Positions 5,562 to 62,525 of a stretch of 64,000 nt of DNA are shown piece by piece. The stretch lies in NCBI GenBank assembly GCA_017307375.1, contig JAFKFH010000005.1, positions 248,001 to 312,000 on the forward strand, written 5' to 3'. Numbering within the stretch: the stretch's first letter is position 1; the number at the start of each line of letters is the position of its first letter. Made by a program: the position numbers and the translations under genes. Origin of the DNA: Alphaproteobacteria bacterium (lineage in GTDB: Bacteria > Pseudomonadota > Alphaproteobacteria > Ferrovibrionales > Ferrovibrionaceae). The notes below the pieces were generated by a model that saw only the letters and a list, made by a program, of their open reading frames with translations, was not told the origin of the DNA and searched no databases.

Positions 5562-6427
5562 CGCCCGTCCCGCGGGTCGAGCGCGTCGCGCAGGGCGTCG
5601 CCGAGCAGGTTGAGGCACAGCAGCGTCAGGGCGAGGAACGTGCCGGGCAGCAGCAGCAGCCACGGCGCCTCCTCGATGTTCTGCGCGCCCTCCGAGATCA
5701 GCACGCCCCAGCTGGTCATCGGCTCCTGAACGCCGAGGCCGAGAAACGAAATGAAACTCTCGATCAGCATGACCTCGGGGATCGTCAGCGTCAGAAAGAC
5801 GATGACCGGGCCCAGCACGTTGGGCACGATATGGCGGCGGACGATGGTCAGGCCGGGGACGCCGATGGCCCGCGCCGCCTCGATGAACTCGCGCCGCTTC
5901 AGGCTCAGTGTCTGGCCCCGCACGATACGGGCCATGGTCAGCCATTCGACGGCCCCGATGGCCACGAAGATCAGGACGATATTCCGCCCGAAATAGACCA
6001 TCAGCAGGATAACGAAGAACATGAACGGCAGCGCGTAGAGGATATCGACCACGCGCATCATCAGCCCGTCGACCCGGCCGCCGACATACCCGGCGACGGC
6101 GCCCCAGGACACCCCGATCACCAGGGCGACCAGACTGGCGATCAGGCCGACCAGCAGCGAGATGCGGCCGCCGACCAGGGTACGGGCCAGCAGGTCGCGG
6201 CCGTTCGGATCGGTGCCGAACCAGTGGCCCGAGGCCCAGTCGGGTCCGGTCAGGATGCTGTCCCAGGCGACGGCATCGTAGCTGTGGGGGATGACCCAGG
6301 GCCCGGCGACGCAGAGCACGACGATCAGGCCCAGCACCGTCATCGCCGCCATCGCCGACGGGTTGCGCCGCAGGCGGAACCAGGCACGGCCCCCGGGGCT
6401 GCGTGGCAGAGCCGCGGCATCAGTCAT
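5558..6427 (-). CDS. oppC: Oligopeptide ABC transporter permease OppC
   Basis: Permease of 289 residues with an N-terminal helix (MAAMTVLGLIVVLCVAG), the extended periplasmic OppC-type loop containing FGTDPNGRDLLART, and five further helices. The EAA coupling loop appears as EAARAIGVPGLTIVRRHIVPN. The ATG at 6427 overlaps the end of oppB by eight bases (ATGACTGA), so the longer upstream start was discarded. It pairs with OppB to form the transmembrane channel. Confidence 0.93.
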   Translation of the reverse strand: MTDAAALPRSPGGRAWFRLRRNPSAMAAMTVLGLIVVLCVAGPWVIPHSYDAVAWDSILTGPDWASGHWFGTDPNGRDLLARTLVGGRISLLVGLIASLVALVIGVSWGAVAGYVGGRVDGLMMRVVDILYALPFMFFVILLMVYFGRNIVLIFVAIGAVEWLTMARIVRGQTLSLKRREFIEAARAIGVPGLTIVRRHIVPNVLGPVIVFLTLTIPEVMLIESFISFLGLGVQEPMTSWGVLISEGAQNIEEAPWLLLLPGTFLALTLLCLNLLGDALRDALDPRDGR

Positions 6428-7343
6428 AACGCACCCGGGGATCGAGCCAGCCATAGGCGAGATCGGCCAGCAGGTTCAGCAGGATGATCAGCGTGCCATA
6501 GAACAGCACGATACCGAGGACCAGGGTGTAGTCGCGATTCAGGGCGCCCTGCACGAAGTAGCGCCCAAGGCCGGGAATGCCGAAGATCTGCTCGATGACG
6601 ACCGAGCCGGTAAGCAGCGCGGCGGCCGTGGGGCCGAGATAGGAGACGACCGGCAGCAGGGCCGCACGCGCCGCATGGCGGGCCAGGATGGTGCCGTTGC
6701 GCAGGCCCTTGGCCCGCGCGGTGCGGATATAGGGGCTGCCCAGCACCTCGGCGAGCGAGCCGCGCGTCAGCCGCGCCACATAGGCGATCTTGGGCAGGGC
6801 CAGCGCCACGACCGGCAGGATCAGGTAGCGCACGGCCCCGTCGCCCCAGCCGCCCACCGGCAGGATGCGCAGATAGACGCCGAGCAGCAGGGTCAGGGCG
6901 GGCGCCACCACGAAGTTCGGGATGGCGATCCCGGTCATGGCCAGCGTCATCACCAGCCGGTCGACCCAGCTATTGCGTCGGAGGGCCGCGACCGCGCCGC
7001 AGGCGACCCCGATCACCACGGCCACGACCAGCGCCGACAGCCCGATCCGGGCCGTGACCGGCAGGCCGGTCGCGATCAGCTCGGCGACACGATAGTCCTT
7101 GTACTTGAACGAGGGACCGAGGTCTCCGCGCGCAAGATCGCCGAGATAGCGCAGATACTGCGCCGACAACGGCGCATCGAGATTGTAGGCGCGGCGCAGG
7201 TTGGCCTCGATCTCCGGCGGCAGCTGCCGCTCCTCGTCGAACGGCCCGCCAGGGGCGAGGCGCACCAGGAAGAAGGCGATCGTGACCAGCGCGAACAGCG
7301 TAGGAATGGCGCCGAGCAGCCGCGCCACGGCATAGCGGAACAT
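6420..7343 (-). CDS. oppB: Oligopeptide ABC transporter permease OppB
   Basis: Permease of 307 residues, very close in length and sequence pattern to enterobacterial OppB. It begins MFRYAVARLLGAIPTLFALV and contains LGPSFKYKDY and the EAA loop YIRTARAKGLRNGTILARHA. It ends GWLDPRVRYD, and the family-typical GIPGLGRYFVQGALNRDYTL is present. Six transmembrane helices are expected. It follows oppA by nine bases and overlaps oppC. The resemblance is to OppB rather than DppB, which supports oligopeptide rather than dipeptide uptake. Confidence 0.94.
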   Translation of the reverse strand: MFRYAVARLLGAIPTLFALVTIAFFLVRLAPGGPFDEERQLPPEIEANLRRAYNLDAPLSAQYLRYLGDLARGDLGPSFKYKDYRVAELIATGLPVTARIGLSALVVAVVIGVACGAVAALRRNSWVDRLVMTLAMTGIAIPNFVVAPALTLLLGVYLRILPVGGWGDGAVRYLILPVVALALPKIAYVARLTRGSLAEVLGSPYIRTARAKGLRNGTILARHAARAALLPVVSYLGPTAAALLTGSVVIEQIFGIPGLGRYFVQGALNRDYTLVLGIVLFYGTLIILLNLLADLAYGWLDPRVRYD

Positions 7344-24687: not shown

Positions 24688-27600
24688 TCACGCCGGGCTG
24701 CGCGCGCCCTCGAGCAACCCGGCGAGATCGCCGGCCGGCATCGGCCTGCCCATCAGGTAACCCTGGCCCTTGCCGCAGCCGACCGCGAGCAGATAATCGC
24801 GCTGGGCCGCCGTCTCGATCCCTTCGGCAACGATGCCGACGCCCAGCGCGGCGGCCATGTTGACCATCGCCGAGACCACGGCGCAGTCCGAGGCGTCGCC
24901 GGGCAGCCCGGCGACGAAATCGCGGTCGATCTTGATCGACCCGATCGGCAACTGCCGCAGCCGCAGCAGCGACGAATAGCCCTTGCCGAAGTCGTCGAGG
25001 GCGATGTCGATGCCCTCGGCGATCAGTTCGTCGAGCAGCGCGGCGGCGCGGCCGTCATCGGCCATCAGGCCGGTCTCGGTGATCTCGACGGTCAGCCGGC
25101 TGAGCGGCACGCGGGCGGCGCCGAAAATCTGGCGCAAGGTTTCAACCAACTCGGCATTGGGCGCGAACTGGCGGGGCGAGACGTTGACGGCGATCCGGAA
25201 GCGGTCAGGCAGGCAGGTCTGCCAGGCGGCCAGGTCGGCCGCGACCTGGCGGACCACATGCTGGCCCAGGGCGACGATCATGCCGGTCTGTTCGGCGGCG
25301 GGAATAAAATCGTCGGGCCGGCGCAGGCTGCCGTCCGGCAGCCGCCAGCGCACCAGCGCCTCGGCCCCGATCATGCGGCCCGAGGCCAGGTCGACCTGCG
25401 GCTGGTACAGCACGAACAGCTCGTCCTCGGCCAATGCCCGCCGCAGGTCGCGCTCGAAGGTCAGCCGGCGGGTCAGGCGATCATTGAGATCGTCGGTGAA
25501 ATAGCGGACGCCGCCACCGTTTTCCTTGGCGTGGTACATCGCGGCATCAGCGCTGCGCACCAGGGCGTCCATGTCGCGACCGTCGTCCGGAAACAGGGCG
25601 ATGCCGACCGAGGCGCCGACATCGAGCTGCTGGCCGGCCAGTTCGAACGGCTGGATGATCGCCTGGCGCAGACGCTCGGCGACGGCGGCGACCGCCTCGG
25701 CATCGGTGACCGAGGGCATGATCACGCAGAATTCGTCCCCGCCGTAGCGCGCGACGGTATCGGACGGTCGAACCTGTTCGGCCAGCCGGGTTGCCGCCAC
25801 CCGCAGCACCTGGTCGCCGACATGATGGCCGAGCGTATCGTTGATCAGCTTGAACTTGTCGAGGTCGAGAAAGCACAGCCCGACCTTGGCACCCGAGCGC
25901 CGCGCCGCGTCGATCACCTGGCCCAGCCGATCCTGCAGCAGCCGGCGATTGGGCAGGTTGGTCACGTGGTCGAAATTGGCATAACGCCAGATCTTTTCCT
26001 CGTGCTCCTTGCGCTCGGACAGGTCGGTGAACATCGCGAAGCGGTGGGCGACCCGGCCGCTTTCGTCGCGCACCACCGCGATCGACAGCCAGACCGGCAC
26101 CAGGTTGCGCGCCTTGGTCAGCGCCATCACCTCACCCTGCCAGGCGCCCTGGCGATCGATCGCCGCCTCGATCGACTGGCGCAATTCGGCATCGTGCCGG
26201 GTGGACAGCAAGTGGCGCAGGTCGAGGCCGCGGGCCTCGCGCGCGCTGTAGCCGAACAGCCTGGCGAACGCGTCGTTGGTATCGGCGACACCACCGAGGT
26301 CGTTGAAGATCGCAATCGCCTCGCCGGTGCCCTGGAAGACCGAGGCGGCAAGACGCAGGGCTTCTTCGGCACGCTTGGCGGCCGAGATGTCCTCGACGAT
26401 CGCGATCAGCACCGCGCCGTCGCCCAGGCGCATCTCGGCCGCAGCGAAAGCCAGGCGCACCCATGTGGTCTGCCCGGCCGCGGTCTGCGCCCGCGCCTCG
26501 ACCGGCGGCGCCGTCTCGCCCTGATTGCCCTGCGCGATCGCCATGGCGTCGGCGACGCCCATCCGGTCGCCGGGGCGGATCAGATCCCCCAGGCGCTGGC
26601 CCACCAGCGACGCGGCGGGGCGGTCCAGGATCGTCGAGAAGGCGACATTGACCTCGACGATGGTGCCGTCGGGACGCAGCAGGACCAGGCCCAGCGCGGC
26701 GTTCTCGAACATCGTGCGGAAGCGTTCCTCGCTCGACCGCAGCGCCGCCGCGGCCTCGCGCCGCGCGGTGATGTCGTGCAGGGTGGCCAGCCAGTAGACA
26801 TGCCGGCGGGTCTGGACCTCGACCAGCGACAATTCGACCGGCACCAGCCCGCCATCCAGTCGCCGCGCCAGCATTTCGCGGGCGATGCAGGGCACCGGCC
26901 CGGTCATCAGCAGGGCCGGCATCAACTCGCCGATCCGCCCGCCGGTCAGGTCGCCTGCCGGTTGGCCGAACAGGGTCTCGGCCTGGGGATTGGCATAAAG
27001 CACGTGGCGACCGTCCTGGTCGAGGATCAGGATCGCGTCGGTGGCGGCGGTGACGATGGTCTGGGTGCGGGCGACCGCTTCCTCGACGCGGTCGATCAGC
27101 GCGTTGTAGCGGCGGGCGATCCGGCCGACCTCGGTAAACGGTTCCTCGGGGACGCGCAGCGACAGGTCGGCGGTTTCGGCCTGACGCTCGATCACCTCGA
27201 AGAAATCATGCAGTTCGGTCCGGGCGCCGTGTTCGGAGACGTTGAGACCGGCGGTCTCGGCCTCGGCGGAAACCCGCAAGGGGAAGAAACGGGCGAACAC
27301 CCACAACAGGGCCAGCGGCACGATGAAGGCGGCGACGAAGCAGGCAGCGATACCCTGCAGTTGCGCGCCGATCTGGCCCAGCCGGGACAGGCCGGTCCCG
27401 AGCGCTGCCGGATCGCCGAACAGCCCCACCGCCAGCGTGCCCCAGACACCGGCGCCGAGATGCACCGGCACGGCGCCGACCGCATCGTCGATCCGCAGAC
27501 GCAGCAGCAGTGCCTCCAGCCCGGTCATCGCCAGGGCGCCCACGGCACCAATCAAGAGGGCGGCTTCCGAGGTCGTCGCGTGCGCGCTGGCCGTGACCGC

Positions 27601-28446
27601 GACCATGCCGGCGACGATGCCGTTCAGCAGGCCTTCGACCCGCATCGTGCCGCTGGCCATGCGACCGAGCGCCAGGCCCGCGGCCCCGCCTGCCGCAGCA
27701 CCGAGCGTCGTGTTCAGGATGATCAGCGGCACGCGCTCGTCGAACTTCAGGGTCGACCCGCCGTTGAAGCCGAGCCAGCCGAACCAGAGGATCAGCACGC
27801 CCAGGCTGACCAGCGGCAGGCTGGACGGCACGATGTCGCGCGGCCGGCCGTTCGCATCGAAGCGACCGAGCCGCGGGCCGAGCAGGACCAGCAGCGCCAG
27901 CGAGAACCAGCCCCCGACCGAATGCACCGCGCTCGACCCCGCCCAGTCGACGAAACCGGCCTGGCCGAGCCAGCCGGTGAAATGCCCGGTCTCCGATCCG
28001 CCCCAGGCCCAATGGCCGAACAGCGGATAGGTCAGCCCGGCCATCATCGCCGAGGTGAACAGATAGGCGGTGAAGCCCATGCGCTCGGCCACCGCACCCG
28101 AGATGATGGTGACCGAGGTCGAGCAAAACACGGTCTGGAAGATGAAGAAGGCCAGGAGATAGCCGCCGGCATCCGCGGGCACCAGGAAATGGCTGGTCCC
28201 GATCAGACCCGCGGCCGACCGGCCGAACATCAGCCCGAACCCGACCGCCCAGAACACCAGCACCGCGACGACGAAGTCGGCGACGTTCTTCATCGCCACG
28301 TTGATCGCGTTCTTCGACCGGGTCATCCCGGTTTCCAGGCACAGGAAGCCGGCCTGCATCAGCATGACGAGGGCGGCGGCAACAATGATCCACAGGAGAT
28401 CGAGCGGGGAAGGCGCAACCATGGGCGGTTGTCCAGCAAGAAGCAT
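24688..28446 (-). CDS. Ammonium transporter (Amt) fused to PAS-PAS-PAS-GGDEF-EAL
   Basis: A roughly 1,252-residue fusion. Residues about 10-410 form a full Amt/Rh channel with FLCLETGMTRSKNAINVAMK and both pore histidines, H175 (SSAVHSVGG) and H329 (GAVPVHLGAG). The latter are spaced like the twin-His of AmtB. A linker and three PAS regions (about 460-830) lead to GGDEF (motif at 902-906, preceded by the inhibitory RxxD as RPSD) and EAL (motif at 1029-1031, with DDFGKGYSSL and EGIET). Both c-di-GMP domains look catalytically intact. The protein should couple ammonium binding or transport to c-di-GMP turnover at the inner membrane. The start is uncertain: TTG 28488, ATG 28446 and ATG 28422 are possible. 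No PII gene is adjacent. Confidence 0.93.
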   Translation of the reverse strand: MLLAGQPPMVAPSPLDLLWIIVAAALVMLMQAGFLCLETGMTRSKNAINVAMKNVADFVVAVLVFWAVGFGLMFGRSAAGLIGTSHFLVPADAGGYLLAFFIFQTVFCSTSVTIISGAVAERMGFTAYLFTSAMMAGLTYPLFGHWAWGGSETGHFTGWLGQAGFVDWAGSSAVHSVGGWFSLALLVLLGPRLGRFDANGRPRDIVPSSLPLVSLGVLILWFGWLGFNGGSTLKFDERVPLIILNTTLGAAAGGAAGLALGRMASGTMRVEGLLNGIVAGMVAVTASAHATTSEAALLIGAVGALAMTGLEALLLRLRIDDAVGAVPVHLGAGVWGTLAVGLFGDPAALGTGLSRLGQIGAQLQGIAACFVAAFIVPLALLWVFARFFPLRVSAEAETAGLNVSEHGARTELHDFFEVIERQAETADLSLRVPEEPFTEVGRIARRYNALIDRVEEAVARTQTIVTAATDAILILDQDGRHVLYANPQAETLFGQPAGDLTGGRIGELMPALLMTGPVPCIAREMLARRLDGGLVPVELSLVEVQTRRHVYWLATLHDITARREAAAALRSSEERFRTMFENAALGLVLLRPDGTIVEVNVAFSTILDRPAASLVGQRLGDLIRPGDRMGVADAMAIAQGNQGETAPPVEARAQTAAGQTTWVRLAFAAAEMRLGDGAVLIAIVEDISAAKRAEEALRLAASVFQGTGEAIAIFNDLGGVADTNDAFARLFGYSAREARGLDLRHLLSTRHDAELRQSIEAAIDRQGAWQGEVMALTKARNLVPVWLSIAVVRDESGRVAHRFAMFTDLSERKEHEEKIWRYANFDHVTNLPNRRLLQDRLGQVIDAARRSGAKVGLCFLDLDKFKLINDTLGHHVGDQVLRVAATRLAEQVRPSDTVARYGGDEFCVIMPSVTDAEAVAAVAERLRQAIIQPFELAGQQLDVGASVGIALFPDDGRDMDALVRSADAAMYHAKENGGGVRYFTDDLNDRLTRRLTFERDLRRALAEDELFVLYQPQVDLASGRMIGAEALVRWRLPDGSLRRPDDFIPAAEQTGMIVALGQHVVRQVAADLAAWQTCLPDRFRIAVNVSPRQFAPNAELVETLRQIFGAARVPLSRLTVEITETGLMADDGRAAALLDELIAEGIDIALDDFGKGYSSLLRLRQLPIGSIKIDRDFVAGLPGDASDCAVVSAMVNMAAALGVGIVAEGIETAAQRDYLLAVGCGKGQGYLMGRPMPAGDLAGLLEGARSPA

Positions 28447-39937: not shown

Positions 39938-39941
<4 letters not shown>

Positions 39942-41050
39942 TGCGCCGCCGGATCCTCGACCGGCTGGGTCGGGCGGTATTGCGCCCCCGGCAGCTTGCG
40001 CTTGAGCCGCATGACGTAAGAGATCACCTCGGCGACCGCGCGGTAGTACTTTTCCGGAATTTCCTGGTCGAGGTCGACGGTGTAGAGGGCACGCGCCAGC
40101 GGCGGGTTCTCGACGATCGGCACCTCGGCCTCGGTCGCCATCTCACGGATGCGCAGCGCGATATGGTCGAGGCCCTTGGCCACCACCTTGGGCGCGCTGA
40201 GATCGACGCCGATATATTTCAATGCCACTGCGTAATGGGTCGGGTTGGTGACCACGACGTCGGCGGTCGGCACCGCCGCCATCATGCGCTGGCGCGCGCG
40301 CTGCATCCGCAGCGAGCGCAGGCGGCCCTTGATCTGCGGGTCGCCTTCCTGCTGCTTGTGCTCTTCCTTGACCTCCTGCTTGGTCATCATCAGCTTCTGC
40401 CGATGCTGGTAGCGCTGATAGACGTAATCGGCCAGGCCCAGCACGATCAGCGCGCCGACCACCGACTTCAGCATCGCCATGACCAGCCGCTCGGTCTCCT
40501 TCAGCTGCAGCATCGGTTCGAGCTGGGCCAGCAGTTCGATCTTCTTGAAGTCGACGGCCAGGGCCGAGATCGCCGCCCCGCCGACCAGCACGAACTTGAA
40601 GATGTTCTTGCCGAGTTCGACCAGGTTCTGCTTCGACAGGATCTTCTTCAGCCCGGCGATCGGACTGAGATGCGACAGCATGTCCTCGAACTTGTTCGAC
40701 GCGATCGTCGGCGGATTCTGGATCACCGACGAGGCGATCGACAGGATCGCCATCACGGCGAACAGCGGCGCCACGGTAAGCGCCAGGTTGATCGTCAGGT
40801 CGCGCATCATGTCGATGAAGCCGCCCTTGTCGACCGCGATGCGATGGGGCTGCTGCACGAAGACGATCAGCATGTCGTAGACCGACTTGCAGATCGTGCC
40901 GGCCAGGGCCGAGACCGCGATCGTCGCCCCGCCGATCATCACGATATGCTGAAGCTCCATCGACCGCGGCATGTCGCCGCGCGCCGCCGCCTCGGACAGC
41001 TTCTTGGATGATGGCTCTTCCGTTTTGGAGGAATCGTCTTCGTCCGACAT
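39938..41050 (-). CDS. flhB: Flagellar export switch protein FlhB
   Basis: A 370-residue inner-membrane protein with four helices and a C-terminal cytoplasmic domain carrying the self-cleavage site NPTH in VVTNPTHYAVALKYIG, followed by GLDHIALRIREMATE. It is part of the flagellar type III export gate and switches specificity from rod/hook to filament substrates. It lies three bases after the fliR stop and overlaps cckA. Confidence 0.96.
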
Positions 41051-41053
41051 CGC

Positions 41054-41824
41054 TCAGCGCACCAGGAAGTGGGAGAGATGGTCTTCGAGATGACCGACGA
41101 AATACGATCCGACCAGGCCGAGCGTCGTCGCCATGACGAACAGGCCGCCGAGAATCTGGATCGGCTGGGTGATGTAGGTGATCTGGATCATCGGCATCAG
41201 CCGACCCAGTATGCCCTGTCCGACCGCGAAGATCATGCCGTAGATGATGAAGGGGCCGGCGAACTGGATGCCGAGGAACCAGGAATCGGCCACGGCCCGG
41301 GTGGCAAGCTGGGCGAAGTCGCCCGGCGGCAGCATGCGGACCGGCGGAAAGAGCTGATAGGAATCGGCCACGGCCCGTAGCATGACGAGATGCAGATCGG
41401 AGGTAAAGACGAAGAACAGCCCGAAGATCGACAGGAAGGCCGAGACCAGCGCGCTCTGGCTGGCCTGGGCGGGGTCGTAGAACTGGGCAAACGACAGGCC
41501 GGTCTGCATGCCGATGATGTTGCCGGCGGTGGCCAGCGCGGTCATCAGGATGCGGCATGAAAAACCGATGAACACGCCGATCGCCACTTCCGACGAGATC
41601 ATCCACAGCAACCGGGTCAGTTGCACCGGCGGATCGGGCAAGGTCGGCGCGATCGGCAGCATGATCACGAACGATATGGCGAGCGCGAGCGTCAGGCGGA
41701 TCGAGACCGACACGTAGTTCTCGCCGATGCCGGGCAGCATCATGATCAGCGCCCCGACCCGGGCGAAGACCAGCATGTAGGCAAATACCCCGAACGGCAG
41801 GATCTCGCGGATCAGTGCGCCCAT
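41054..41824 (-). CDS. fliR: Flagellar export gate protein FliR
   Basis: A 256-residue hydrophobic protein with about six helices. The family regions include FARVGALIMMLPGIGENYVS, GFSCRILMTALATAGNIIGM and QTGLSFAQFYDP near the N-terminal half, and the later FAVGQGILGRLMPMIQITYI. FliR forms the export gate core with FliP and FliQ. Gene order fliQ-fliR-flhB is the usual one. Confidence 0.95.
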   Translation of the reverse strand: MGALIREILPFGVFAYMLVFARVGALIMMLPGIGENYVSVSIRLTLALAISFVIMLPIAPTLPDPPVQLTRLLWMISSEVAIGVFIGFSCRILMTALATAGNIIGMQTGLSFAQFYDPAQASQSALVSAFLSIFGLFFVFTSDLHLVMLRAVADSYQLFPPVRMLPPGDFAQLATRAVADSWFLGIQFAGPFIIYGMIFAVGQGILGRLMPMIQITYITQPIQILGGLFVMATTLGLVGSYFVGHLEDHLSHFLVR

Positions 41825-41836
41825 GGCGTCCGGCCC

Positions 41837-42112
41837 TCAGCCCGCCCCGCCGATCCTGATGATGCGGGCCGCGATGTCGCGCCAGAACTGTTCGAGAAAG
41901 GCCGTCATCAGCGGCAGGAACAGCAACAGCGAGACGAAGATCGCCAGGATCTTCGGAATGAAGACCAGCGTCTGTTCCTGGATCTGGGTCAGGGTCTGGA
42001 TCAGCGACACCACGATGCCAACGACCAGGCCGACCATCATGACCGGCCCTGCCACCTTGATCATCACGATGACGGTTTCCCGGCCGAGATCGAGAACGTC
42101 GGCCGGGTTCAC
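41837..42112 (-). CDS. fliQ: Flagellar export gate protein FliQ
   Basis: A 91-residue protein with two helices: VNPADVLDLGRETVIVMIKV, then GPVMMVGLVVGIVVSLIQTL and TQIQEQTLVFIPKILAIF, standard FliQ features. The GTG at 42112 gives the family length. The ATG at 42220 would add a Cys/Arg-rich tail of unlikely composition. It lies between fliE and fliR on the same strand. Confidence 0.93.
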   Translation of the reverse strand: MNPADVLDLGRETVIVMIKVAGPVMMVGLVVGIVVSLIQTLTQIQEQTLVFIPKILAIFVSLLLFLPLMTAFLEQFWRDIAARIIRIGGAG

Positions 42113-42225
42113 GCGCGGCACCCGCGCCGGACGGCACCTGGATCGACAACGCCCTGGACCAACCGTTCCTCCGGCATGGCACGCGGCCGCGGCCCCGAGG
42201 GGCGCAAGGGCCGGCGCCACGGCCC

Positions 42226-42546
42226 TCAGATCGGCATGCGCATGATTTCCTGATAGGCGCCAATCACCTTATCACGCACCGCCGCCACGGTCTGCAAGGT
42301 CAAATCGGCGTTGTTCACCGCCGATACCAGATCGTTGATGTCGGCCTTGCCGATCGAGGCGGCCATCGACGACAACTCGGCCTTGCCGGTCGCGCCGACG
42401 GCCGAATCCATGGCCGAGGACAGCAGATCCTTGAACGACGAGCCCTTGACGGCCGCGTCTTCGGCACCGGGCTGCGCCGGATCGACGATCGACGAGGCGC
42501 GGGCATAGGCCTGTGCCGCGCGGGTAAGATTGACGTCCATCGCCAT
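42226..42546 (-). CDS. fliE: Flagellar hook-basal body protein FliE
   Basis: A 106-residue protein, with the FliE C-terminal pattern LVSAVNNADLTLQTVAAVRD and KVIGAYQEIMRMPI. It is the MS-ring/rod junction protein and an early export substrate. It is 26 bases after flgC. Confidence 0.94.
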   Translation of the reverse strand: MAMDVNLTRAAQAYARASSIVDPAQPGAEDAAVKGSSFKDLLSSAMDSAVGATGKAELSSMAASIGKADINDLVSAVNNADLTLQTVAAVRDKVIGAYQEIMRMPI

Positions 42547-42572
42547 CGTTCAGCCGCTCCCCGGTCCCGGCG

Positions 42573-42980
42573 TCAGCGCATCAGGTCGATGGTGCGCGAC
42601 AGCATCGTCTTGGCGGTATCGACCAGGTTCAGGTTGGCATCGTAGCTGCGCTGGGCTTCGCGCATGTCCGCCATCTCGATCAGCGTCGAGACGTTGGGAT
42701 ACTTCACATAACCTTCCGCGTTCGCCGAGGGATGGTTGGGTTCGTAGCGCAAGTCGAACTCGCCCTTGTCCTCGCGGATCGCCGAGGGCTTGACGATGCG
42801 GGCGCCGGTCGCGCGGTCCAGCTCGGTCTTGAAGTCGATGACCTTGCGCCGGTACGGGTCGCCGTCGGGCGTCGTGGCCAGCGAATTGGCATTCGCCACG
42901 TTCTCGGCGATCACGCGCATGCGCTTGGACTGCGCCGCCATGCCCGACAGCGAGGTCTGCAACGTATCCTTGAGGTCCAT
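42573..42980 (-). CDS. flgC: Flagellar proximal rod protein FlgC
   Basis: A 135-residue rod protein. N-terminal LQTSLSGMAAQSKRMRVIAE is followed by NVANANSLATTPDGDPYRRK, and the C-terminus is SYDANLNLVDTAKTMLSRTI, the heptad-rich rod/hook signature. Follows flgB by 18 bases. Confidence 0.95.
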   Translation of the reverse strand: MDLKDTLQTSLSGMAAQSKRMRVIAENVANANSLATTPDGDPYRRKVIDFKTELDRATGARIVKPSAIREDKGEFDLRYEPNHPSANAEGYVKYPNVSTLIEMADMREAQRSYDANLNLVDTAKTMLSRTIDLMR

Positions 42981-60902: not shown

Positions 60903-61994
60903 CTAGAGCCGCGGCACGCGCTTCAGCGCGCGGTCGACACGCACGGCGATGCGGTTGCCCATCCGCCCCATCCGGCCCGACACCATCGGCACGCCGCCGC
61001 AGCGCAGATCGACCGGGCTTTCCGGCGTGGCATTGAACAGGATGGTCGAGCCGATCTCGAACTTCATGACGTCGCGCAGCGACATCACCTGCTCGTCCAG
61101 CACCGCCTCGACATCGACGTCGGTCGACCACAGCTCGGTCGCCAGATGGTTTTCCCAGATCGAGTCCCGGCCGAACTTCTCGCCCATGAACATCTGGAGC
61201 AGAAGTTCGCGGACCGGTTCGAGCGTGGCGTAAGGCAGCAGCAGTTCGAGGCGGCCGCCGCGATCGTCCATGTCGATGCGCAGCCGGGCGACGATCGCCG
61301 CATTGGCCGGTCGGGCGATGGTGGCAAAGCGCGGGTTGGTCTCGACCCGGTCGAAGTTGAACGAGACGGCGGCAAGCGGCTCGAAGGCGGTCTGCATGTC
61401 GGCGAGGACCACCCCGACCATGCGTTCGACCAGGTTGCGCTCGATCGTCGTGTAGGGCCGCCCTTCGATACGCATCGCGGCGGTACCGCGGCGCCCGCCC
61501 AGCAACACGTCGACGATCGAGTAGATCAGGGCGGAGTCGACCGTCAGCAGACCATAGTTGTCCCACTCGACCGCGCGGAACACCGCCAGGATTGCCGGCA
61601 GCGGGATCGAGTTGAGGTAGTCGCCGAAGCGGATCGAGGTGATGTTGTCGAGGCTGACTTCGACATTGTCCGAGGTGAAGTTGCGCAGGCTGGTCGTCAT
61701 CAATCGGACGAGACGGTCGAAGACGACTTCGAGCATCGGCAGACGCTCGTAGGAGACGAGCGCACTGTTGATGATCGCCCGCATGCCGGTGCGGTCGGAA
61801 TCCTCGTCCGAGCCGGCATCGAAGCCGAGCAGGCTGTCGATTTCATCCTGGTTGAGGATGCGGGTCGACTGGCCGTCGCCGCCCCCGCCGCCACCGAAAT
61901 CGGCCGCGCCGCCACCGCCCGGGCCGCCCTCCGCCATCGCCGCCCATTCGGCAGCTAGCGCGTCGGCATCCTTCTGTGCGTCGTCGTCGGCCAT
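60903..61994 (-). CDS. fliM: Flagellar motor switch protein FliM
   Basis: A 363-residue C-ring protein with the CheY-P binding motif LNQDEIDSLLG (about 48-58), the middle domain with TSIRFGDYLNSIPLPAILAV and VDVLLGGRRG, and a C-terminal SpoA domain with the family glycine RMGNRIAVRV. It sets rotation direction. A Gly-rich stretch (GGPGGGGAADFGGGGGGDG) precedes the CheY motif, an unusual but unstructured insertion. Between fliL and DUF6468. Confidence 0.95.
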   Translation of the reverse strand: MADDDAQKDADALAAEWAAMAEGGPGGGGAADFGGGGGGDGQSTRILNQDEIDSLLGFDAGSDEDSDRTGMRAIINSALVSYERLPMLEVVFDRLVRLMTTSLRNFTSDNVEVSLDNITSIRFGDYLNSIPLPAILAVFRAVEWDNYGLLTVDSALIYSIVDVLLGGRRGTAAMRIEGRPYTTIERNLVERMVGVVLADMQTAFEPLAAVSFNFDRVETNPRFATIARPANAAIVARLRIDMDDRGGRLELLLPYATLEPVRELLLQMFMGEKFGRDSIWENHLATELWSTDVDVEAVLDEQVMSLRDVMKFEIGSTILFNATPESPVDLRCGGVPMVSGRMGRMGNRIAVRVDRALKRVPRL

Positions 61995-62021
61995 TCCTTC
62001 AGCCTTCCGCCTGCCGGCCCG

Positions 62022-62525
62022 CTACTGGACCAGCATCTCCTTGAACAACACATCCGAGATCTTGGCCGGCGCGATCGCCGCGTTGACCCGGTAGAGCAAT
62101 TCCTCCTTCAGACGCTGCAGCCCCGCCGATCCGGCCAGATCCTCCGAGCGCATCTCGCGCAGATAGACCTGAAAATTGTCGATCACCCGCGGCATCTTCT
62201 GGTTCAACTGCACCAGCGTATCGGCCTGGTCGTATTCCAGCGCGACCTTGAGCTTCAGGAAGCTCTGCGTCCGGCCGGTCGACTGCAGGTTCACAAGGAT
62301 ATCCGGCAGGTCGAGGAACGCCAGGATCTTCGGTTGCGCCGGCTTGGCCGCTTCCTCGGCATGCTCGGCCGGTTTCTTCTTGAACAGGAAGAACCAGGCA
62401 GCCCCACCGCCGCCGCCCAGCAGGATGAGGGCGATCAGCGCGATCAGGATCAGTTTTTTGCCGGCGAGCTTCTTCTTCGGTGCGCCTTCGCCGCCTTCGC
62501 CGTCCGTTGCTTCCTCGTCGGCCAT
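62022..62525 (-). CDS. fliL: Flagellar basal body-associated protein FliL
   Basis: A 167-residue single-pass protein: Lys-rich cytoplasmic start (GAPKKKLAGKKLILIALIAL), transmembrane helix, and periplasmic domain with FLDLPDILVNLQSTGRTQSF, then LKVALEYDQADTLVQLNQKM, the FliL core. It supports stator function. First gene of fliL-fliM-DUF6468-motE, with a 159-base upstream gap. Confidence 0.94.
   Translation of the reverse strand: MADEEATDGEGGEGAPKKKLAGKKLILIALIALILLGGGGGAAWFFLFKKKPAEHAEEAAKPAQPKILAFLDLPDILVNLQSTGRTQSFLKLKVALEYDQADTLVQLNQKMPRVIDNFQVYLREMRSEDLAGSAGLQRLKEELLYRVNAAIAPAKISDVLFKEMLVQ

Follow-up and report, generated by a model that had tools for sequence, protein, structure and literature searches.

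An Amt-PAS3-GGDEF-EAL fusion protein of an alphaproteobacterium as a putative ammonium receptor controlling c-di-GMP

Described ammonium receptors and the fusion gene

The Amt fold has been reused as a receptor in Ks-Amt5 of Kuenenia stuttgartiensis (6eu6), which binds ammonium without efficient translocation, although all pore motifs are kept (PMC5764959). Its ammonium site comprises residues Q24, E31, N47, D50, T51, T109 and T112, the blocking residues are F27, Y30 and F34, and methylammonium evokes no response from the protein (PMC5764959). Ks-Amt5 has a histidine kinase as output and no HAMP. In Sd-Amt1 of Shewanella denitrificans (8qj3, OFF; 8qj4, ON; 8qpf) the output is a GGDEF domain alone, no PAS or EAL domain being found in its chain of 661 amino acids. 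Structures of this Amt-GGDEF receptor in the ON and OFF states, as named in the titles of the PDB entries, were released in 2024; in part, they supersede the view of the initial annotation that the signalling logic of such fusions is little studied. In AmtE of Azoarcus olearius BH72, finally, an Amt is combined with GGDEF/EAL; the protein has been called a likely transceptor, and amtE is up 36-fold under nitrogen fixation (PMC8467165).

The window analysed here, 64,000 nucleotides of contig JAFKFH010000005.1 from a member of the Ferrovibrionaceae, contains an uninterrupted open frame of 1252 amino acids counted from its ATG (24688-28446, minus strand); a TTG upstream is an alternative start that would add 14 amino acids. 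The following features were assigned to it.

24688..28446, minus strand: whole gene, Amt-(HAMP-like)-PAS-PAS-PAS-GGDEF-EAL, 1252 amino acids (open frame; Pfam)
27220..28401, minus strand: putative Amt sensor module, residues 16-409, 11 transmembrane helices (Pfam PF00909; AlphaFold; Foldseek)
28276..28356, minus strand: predicted ammonium site, helix 1-2 part, Q31, E38, N54 and D57 (columns of Ks-Amt5 Q24, E31, N47 and D50)
28099..28110, minus strand: predicted ammonium site, helix 4 part, T113 and S116 (columns of Ks-Amt5 T109 and T112; S116 as in Sd-Amt1)
27076..27216, minus strand: HAMP-like linker, residues 411-457, with helix 411-425, connector and helix from 439 onward (AlphaFold model; alignment with Sd-Amt1)
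26731..27069, minus strand: PAS 1, residues 460-572 (Pfam)
26347..26721, minus strand: PAS 2, residues 576-700 (Pfam)
25999..26340, minus strand: PAS 3, residues 703-816 (Pfam)
25516..25980, minus strand: GGDEF domain, residues 823-977, intact motif GGDEF at 902-906 (Pfam, E 8e-50)
25759..25770, minus strand: I-site RPSD, residues 893-896 (R893-D896; residue check)
24742..25452, minus strand: EAL domain, residues 999-1235, all catalytic residues present (Pfam, E 4e-68; alignment to MorA and MucR)

The observation on which the initial annotation was based, a single-protein fusion of a complete Amt channel, three PAS regions, GGDEF with an RxxD inhibitory site and EAL with all motifs intact, was confirmed throughout, the three PAS domains included. 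Its interpretation was supported in part: the role as a sensor stood, that as a transporter did not, and the proposed link to flagella is weak. We consider it likely, from sequence comparison and structural modeling, that the protein senses ammonium at the membrane in the manner of the receptors Sd-Amt1 and Ks-Amt5 and thereby controls c-di-GMP, and that it is orthologous to the AmtE-like Amt-PAS3-GGDEF-EAL proteins of other proteobacteria. It would add a member with two intact enzymes to a receptor class for which sensor structures of the ON and OFF states are known, so that the link between ammonium and c-di-GMP can be tested directly.

The Amt module: reception versus transport

Pfam places an Ammonium_transp domain at residues 18-409 (E 9e-109). 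The AlphaFold model of residues 1-480 (pLDDT 87.6, pTM 0.85) gave the ON and OFF states of Sd-Amt1 (8qj4, 8qj3; TM 0.94 by target length) as top fold matches in Foldseek; the first four matches are the three Sd-Amt1 entries and the sensor 6eu6, and all transporters rank below. The best sequence matches in the PDB were similarly 8qj3/8qpf (452 bits, spanning Amt, linker and GGDEF), and also 6eu6. Identity of the Amt amounts to 45% with Sd-Amt1 and 41% with Ks-Amt5, compared to 26-31% with canonical AmtB/Af-Amt1, which share the fold, the twin histidines and the Phe gate but have no fused output. Alignment with Ks-Amt5, Sd-Amt1 and Af-Amt1 identified H175 and H329 as the twin histidines, and F107, W148, F227 and S231 as Phe gate and selectivity filter; the loss of conserved pore residues, named in the initial annotation as an observation that would speak against it, was seen at none of these positions. 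Since Ks-Amt5, the closest characterised relative for which transport data exist, keeps the same histidines and Phe gate yet translocates inefficiently, intact pore residues do not argue for transport, and the designation as a transporter is not upheld. Likewise, methylammonium uptake, originally suggested as an experiment, would be a poor assay here because Ks-Amt5 is unresponsive to this compound.

The residues of the Ks-Amt5 ammonium site are kept at five of seven positions (Q31, E38, N54, D57 and T113), with a conservative T to S exchange at one, and Sd-Amt1 has the same residue as the window protein in each of the seven columns (Q31, E38, N54, D57, F58, T113 and S116). Site residues occur in nearly all fused Amts fetched, whereas they are absent from the canonical Amts checked, Af-Amt1 and the paralogue of the same genome. 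As the site is largely kept and the nearest structures are receptors, the term sensor is better supported than transporter, and the homology to Sd-Amt1 and Ks-Amt5 lends good support to the proposal that an ammonium sensor sets c-di-GMP. The protein thus appears to combine an Amt fold with pore residues, the residues of an ammonium site and a fused cytoplasmic output, as expected for such a receptor. Features of an assimilatory Amt transporter were not observed: the window Amt lies on a separate tree branch, and neither of the genome's two P-II genes is on the contig of the fusion gene. Conduction of ammonium by the fused protein is probably slight or absent; the second, canonical Amt, encoded on another contig (C41), can serve uptake.

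Alternatively, the Amt part might still transport ammonium, so that flux rather than static binding would set the c-di-GMP output. Such a transceptor would agree with the intact pore, with the change of two of the three bulky blocking residues of Ks-Amt5 (Y30 to L37 and F34 to M41, F27 being kept as F34), and with the description of AmtE (PMC8467165). Stand-alone Amts bear on the question as well. Among 34 of them with the complete Q/E/N/D/T set, about 24 share a locus with a P-II gene, mostly directly adjacent (L024, L027, L028, L049, L057, L061, L063 and others; matches near 6001-7200). In seven of the 17 genomes checked (L028, L049, L054, L057, L061, L063 and L066), no Amt other than a site-bearing stand-alone one was found; several are draft metagenome assemblies from which a second Amt could be missing. 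It is difficult to regard such P-II-linked Amts as receptors only, and the site is probably older than the fusions and probably does not prevent transport by its mere presence. Being shared with them, it is a property of the clade rather than proof of reception or of lost transport, and the statement that assimilatory Amts are without the site is called into question. A P-II gene was present at only two loci with fused Amts, directly adjacent at neither, a comparison weakened by short flanks. As sequence and fold of the window Amt are closest to the receptors and a separate canonical Amt is present, we regard transport-coupled signalling as unlikely.

The Amt module is followed by residues 411-477, for which the model predicts a helix-linker-helix arrangement with the plan typical of HAMP. 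This region aligns with the same region of Sd-Amt1 in the PDB sequence match, and Sd-Amt1 is said to have a HAMP; the Pfam search of the 1252 amino acids returned no HAMP match. The linker, absent from the domain list of the initial annotation, is therefore referred to as HAMP-like. Given the three serial PAS domains in front of GGDEF-EAL, an arrangement comparable to the PDB matches PA0861 (RbdA) and DosP, it might also be speculated that the Amt is mainly a membrane anchor and that internal redox or metabolite signals perceived by the PAS domains decide on c-di-GMP activity. Among the relatives, conservation of the Amt site and pore extends over large distances, while one, two or three PAS domains may be present, the reverse of what would be expected for an anchor, which leaves this idea very improbable.

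Predicted output and genomic context

The GGDEF motif is preceded by the I-site RPSD, and the EAL residues are intact (EAL at 1029-1031, N1088, E1121, E1124, D1151, D1152, K1172, E1208 and Q1228). The residues required of a bifunctional GGDEF-EAL enzyme are thus present, and both activities are predicted. Across 20 Amt-GGDEF-EAL proteins compared, the GGDEF motif is kept in all, an RxxD at the I-site in 16, and the checked EAL residues in 19. In the exception, an Amt-PAS2-GGDEF-EAL protein (L152:4055-7516), the GGDEF is intact and the EAL site has degenerated (DD to DH, E to K).

Based on these domains, the function of an ammonium receptor might be envisaged as follows. External ammonium would pass the W148/S231 filter and bind to the intramembrane site Q31/E38/N54/D57/T113, a role suggested by the residues seen there. 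By analogy to Sd-Amt1, binding may shift the HAMP-like linker along with the C-terminal helix. Two GGDEF domains would then be brought together by the pairing of linkers and PAS domains, leading to c-di-GMP synthesis with ammonium, which the RPSD I-site would limit. Without ammonium, the EAL phosphodiesterase would be expected to dominate. Through the PAS domains, an internal signal probably enters as a second input. Ammonium is assigned to synthesis because of the ON state of Sd-Amt1, and this direction, with breakdown when ammonium is lacking, is the least certain step, proposed tentatively and with slightly more doubt than trust. A more far-reaching reading, a true reversal of sign within one protein between synthase with ammonium bound and phosphodiesterase without, with an internal second input through PAS and a trimeric sensor driving dimeric enzymes, is speculative and rather doubtful.

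Net phosphodiesterase activity is common among PAS-GGDEF-EAL proteins in which both sites are intact, and MorA, which is among the closest GGDEF-EAL structures, is a phosphodiesterase in vivo. The best NCBIfam similarity, far below the cut-off, is to the phosphodiesterase DibA. It might thus be hypothesized that the protein acts one-sidedly in vivo, the GGDEF domain serving as a GTP-binding regulator and ammonium gating breakdown alone, which would be compatible with a receptor. The intact GGDEF motif and I-site, the retention of the motif in all 20 relatives and the GGDEF-only output of Sd-Amt1 speak against this, and we consider it a somewhat unlikely, if reasonable, option.

The initial annotation had further linked nitrogen supply to a flagellar system encoded nearby. 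Flagellar genes do occur in the window on the minus strand, encoding FlhB, FliR, FliQ, FliE and FlgC at 39.9-43 kb (39938-42980) and FliM and FliL at 60.9-62.5 kb (60903-62525). They lie at least 11 kb from the fusion gene, and with 57 GGDEF and six PilZ matches in the genome, gene closeness says little about the target of this one GGDEF locus. With neighbourhood as the argument, a connection of its c-di-GMP to flagella is therefore weak. A link to nitrogen fixation, the condition under which AmtE is induced (PMC8467165), was dropped as no nifH over the cut-off was found in the genome.

The fusion gene is solitary, its flanking genes both being on the other strand: an ATP-dependent DNA ligase gene is convergent, its end lying two bases from the fusion gene, and on the upstream side a gene for cytochrome b561 has the opposite direction. 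In the upstream region, matches to a sigma-54 (nitrogen-control) promoter pattern were no more than expected by chance, and no sigma-70-like site was found. Synteny with same-family genomes was considered and rejected; the ligase neighbour is kept in only two, on contigs other than that of the Amt-kinase gene.

Relatives and origin of the fusion

Among 30 relatives, the Amt of same-family genomes is about 50% identical, with frames of 713-763 amino acids, and those fetched are Amt-linker-histidine kinase proteins; in these (L004-L012) Amt and linker are alike at about 50% identity, while the output is a kinase and the Amt falls on a separate branch of the tree. Above 450 bits, about 30 matches were obtained from 385 genomes of the class, and nearly all those read were histidine kinase fusions; among them, a GGDEF-EAL output was seen in the window protein and in one other genome (G140). 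A sample of the phylum yielded about 14 further Amt GGDEF-EAL fusions. Six of these, from genomes of another class, have the exact Amt-PAS3-GGDEF-EAL architecture (L153-L156, L158 and L162; 61% Amt identity to the nearest), and fusions with one or two PAS domains are present in Halochromatium roseum, Marinomonas sp. TW1 and Vreelandella stevensii. The architecture is thus not new, in accordance with the published AmtE and with the earlier statement that such fusions exist.

The window Amt groups with the six Amt-PAS3-GGDEF-EAL proteins (support 100/99), and so does the GGDEF-EAL part (95/92) in a tree that took in four paralogues from the same genome. As both ends give the same placement and the architecture is kept in six genomes, the protein appears to have been inherited as a whole and not joined by chance, and domain order and joint placement identify it as an orthologue of this group. 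Constraining the window Amt to group with the Amts of kinase fusions from its own class was rejected (p 0.013, for a group picked after the tree had been seen). The Amt tree rejects a single origin of all Amt-GGDEF-EAL proteins (p-AU 1e-61); the GGDEF-EAL tree with its few outgroups does not (p 0.095). The gene has a GC content of 69%, and 89% at third positions, as do its neighbours; a recent transfer was rejected on this basis, and any transfer must be old. The likeliest history is acquisition of an AmtE-like gene from a donor outside the class, at a time remote enough for its base composition to have adjusted since; a less likely alternative is an ancient paralogue lost elsewhere.

Among the relatives, the same Amt module is fused to histidine kinase, MCP, SpoIIE and GGDEF-EAL outputs, a variety as expected of a sensor. 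Best matches in the plasmid collection were 46% identical and, where annotated, listed only as 'ammonium transporter'. In Pelagibacteraceae the module is joined to a SpoIIE-type phosphatase domain (L016:5959-8127, L017:5965-8121, L018:5968-8121, L023:5974-8127 and L062:4558-6732), which suggests ammonium control of a phosphatase in SAR11. Fusions to an MCP domain, likely ammonium chemoreceptors, occur in Salibacterium, Terasakiella, Halonatronum, Orenia and others (L022:5896-8274, L026:5956-8334, L047:922-3171, L059:5869-8139, L161, L165 and L166). A Planctomycetaceae genome, finally, carries an open frame of 1367 amino acids for an Amt-PAS-histidine kinase-receiver-receiver protein (L020:5785-9885).
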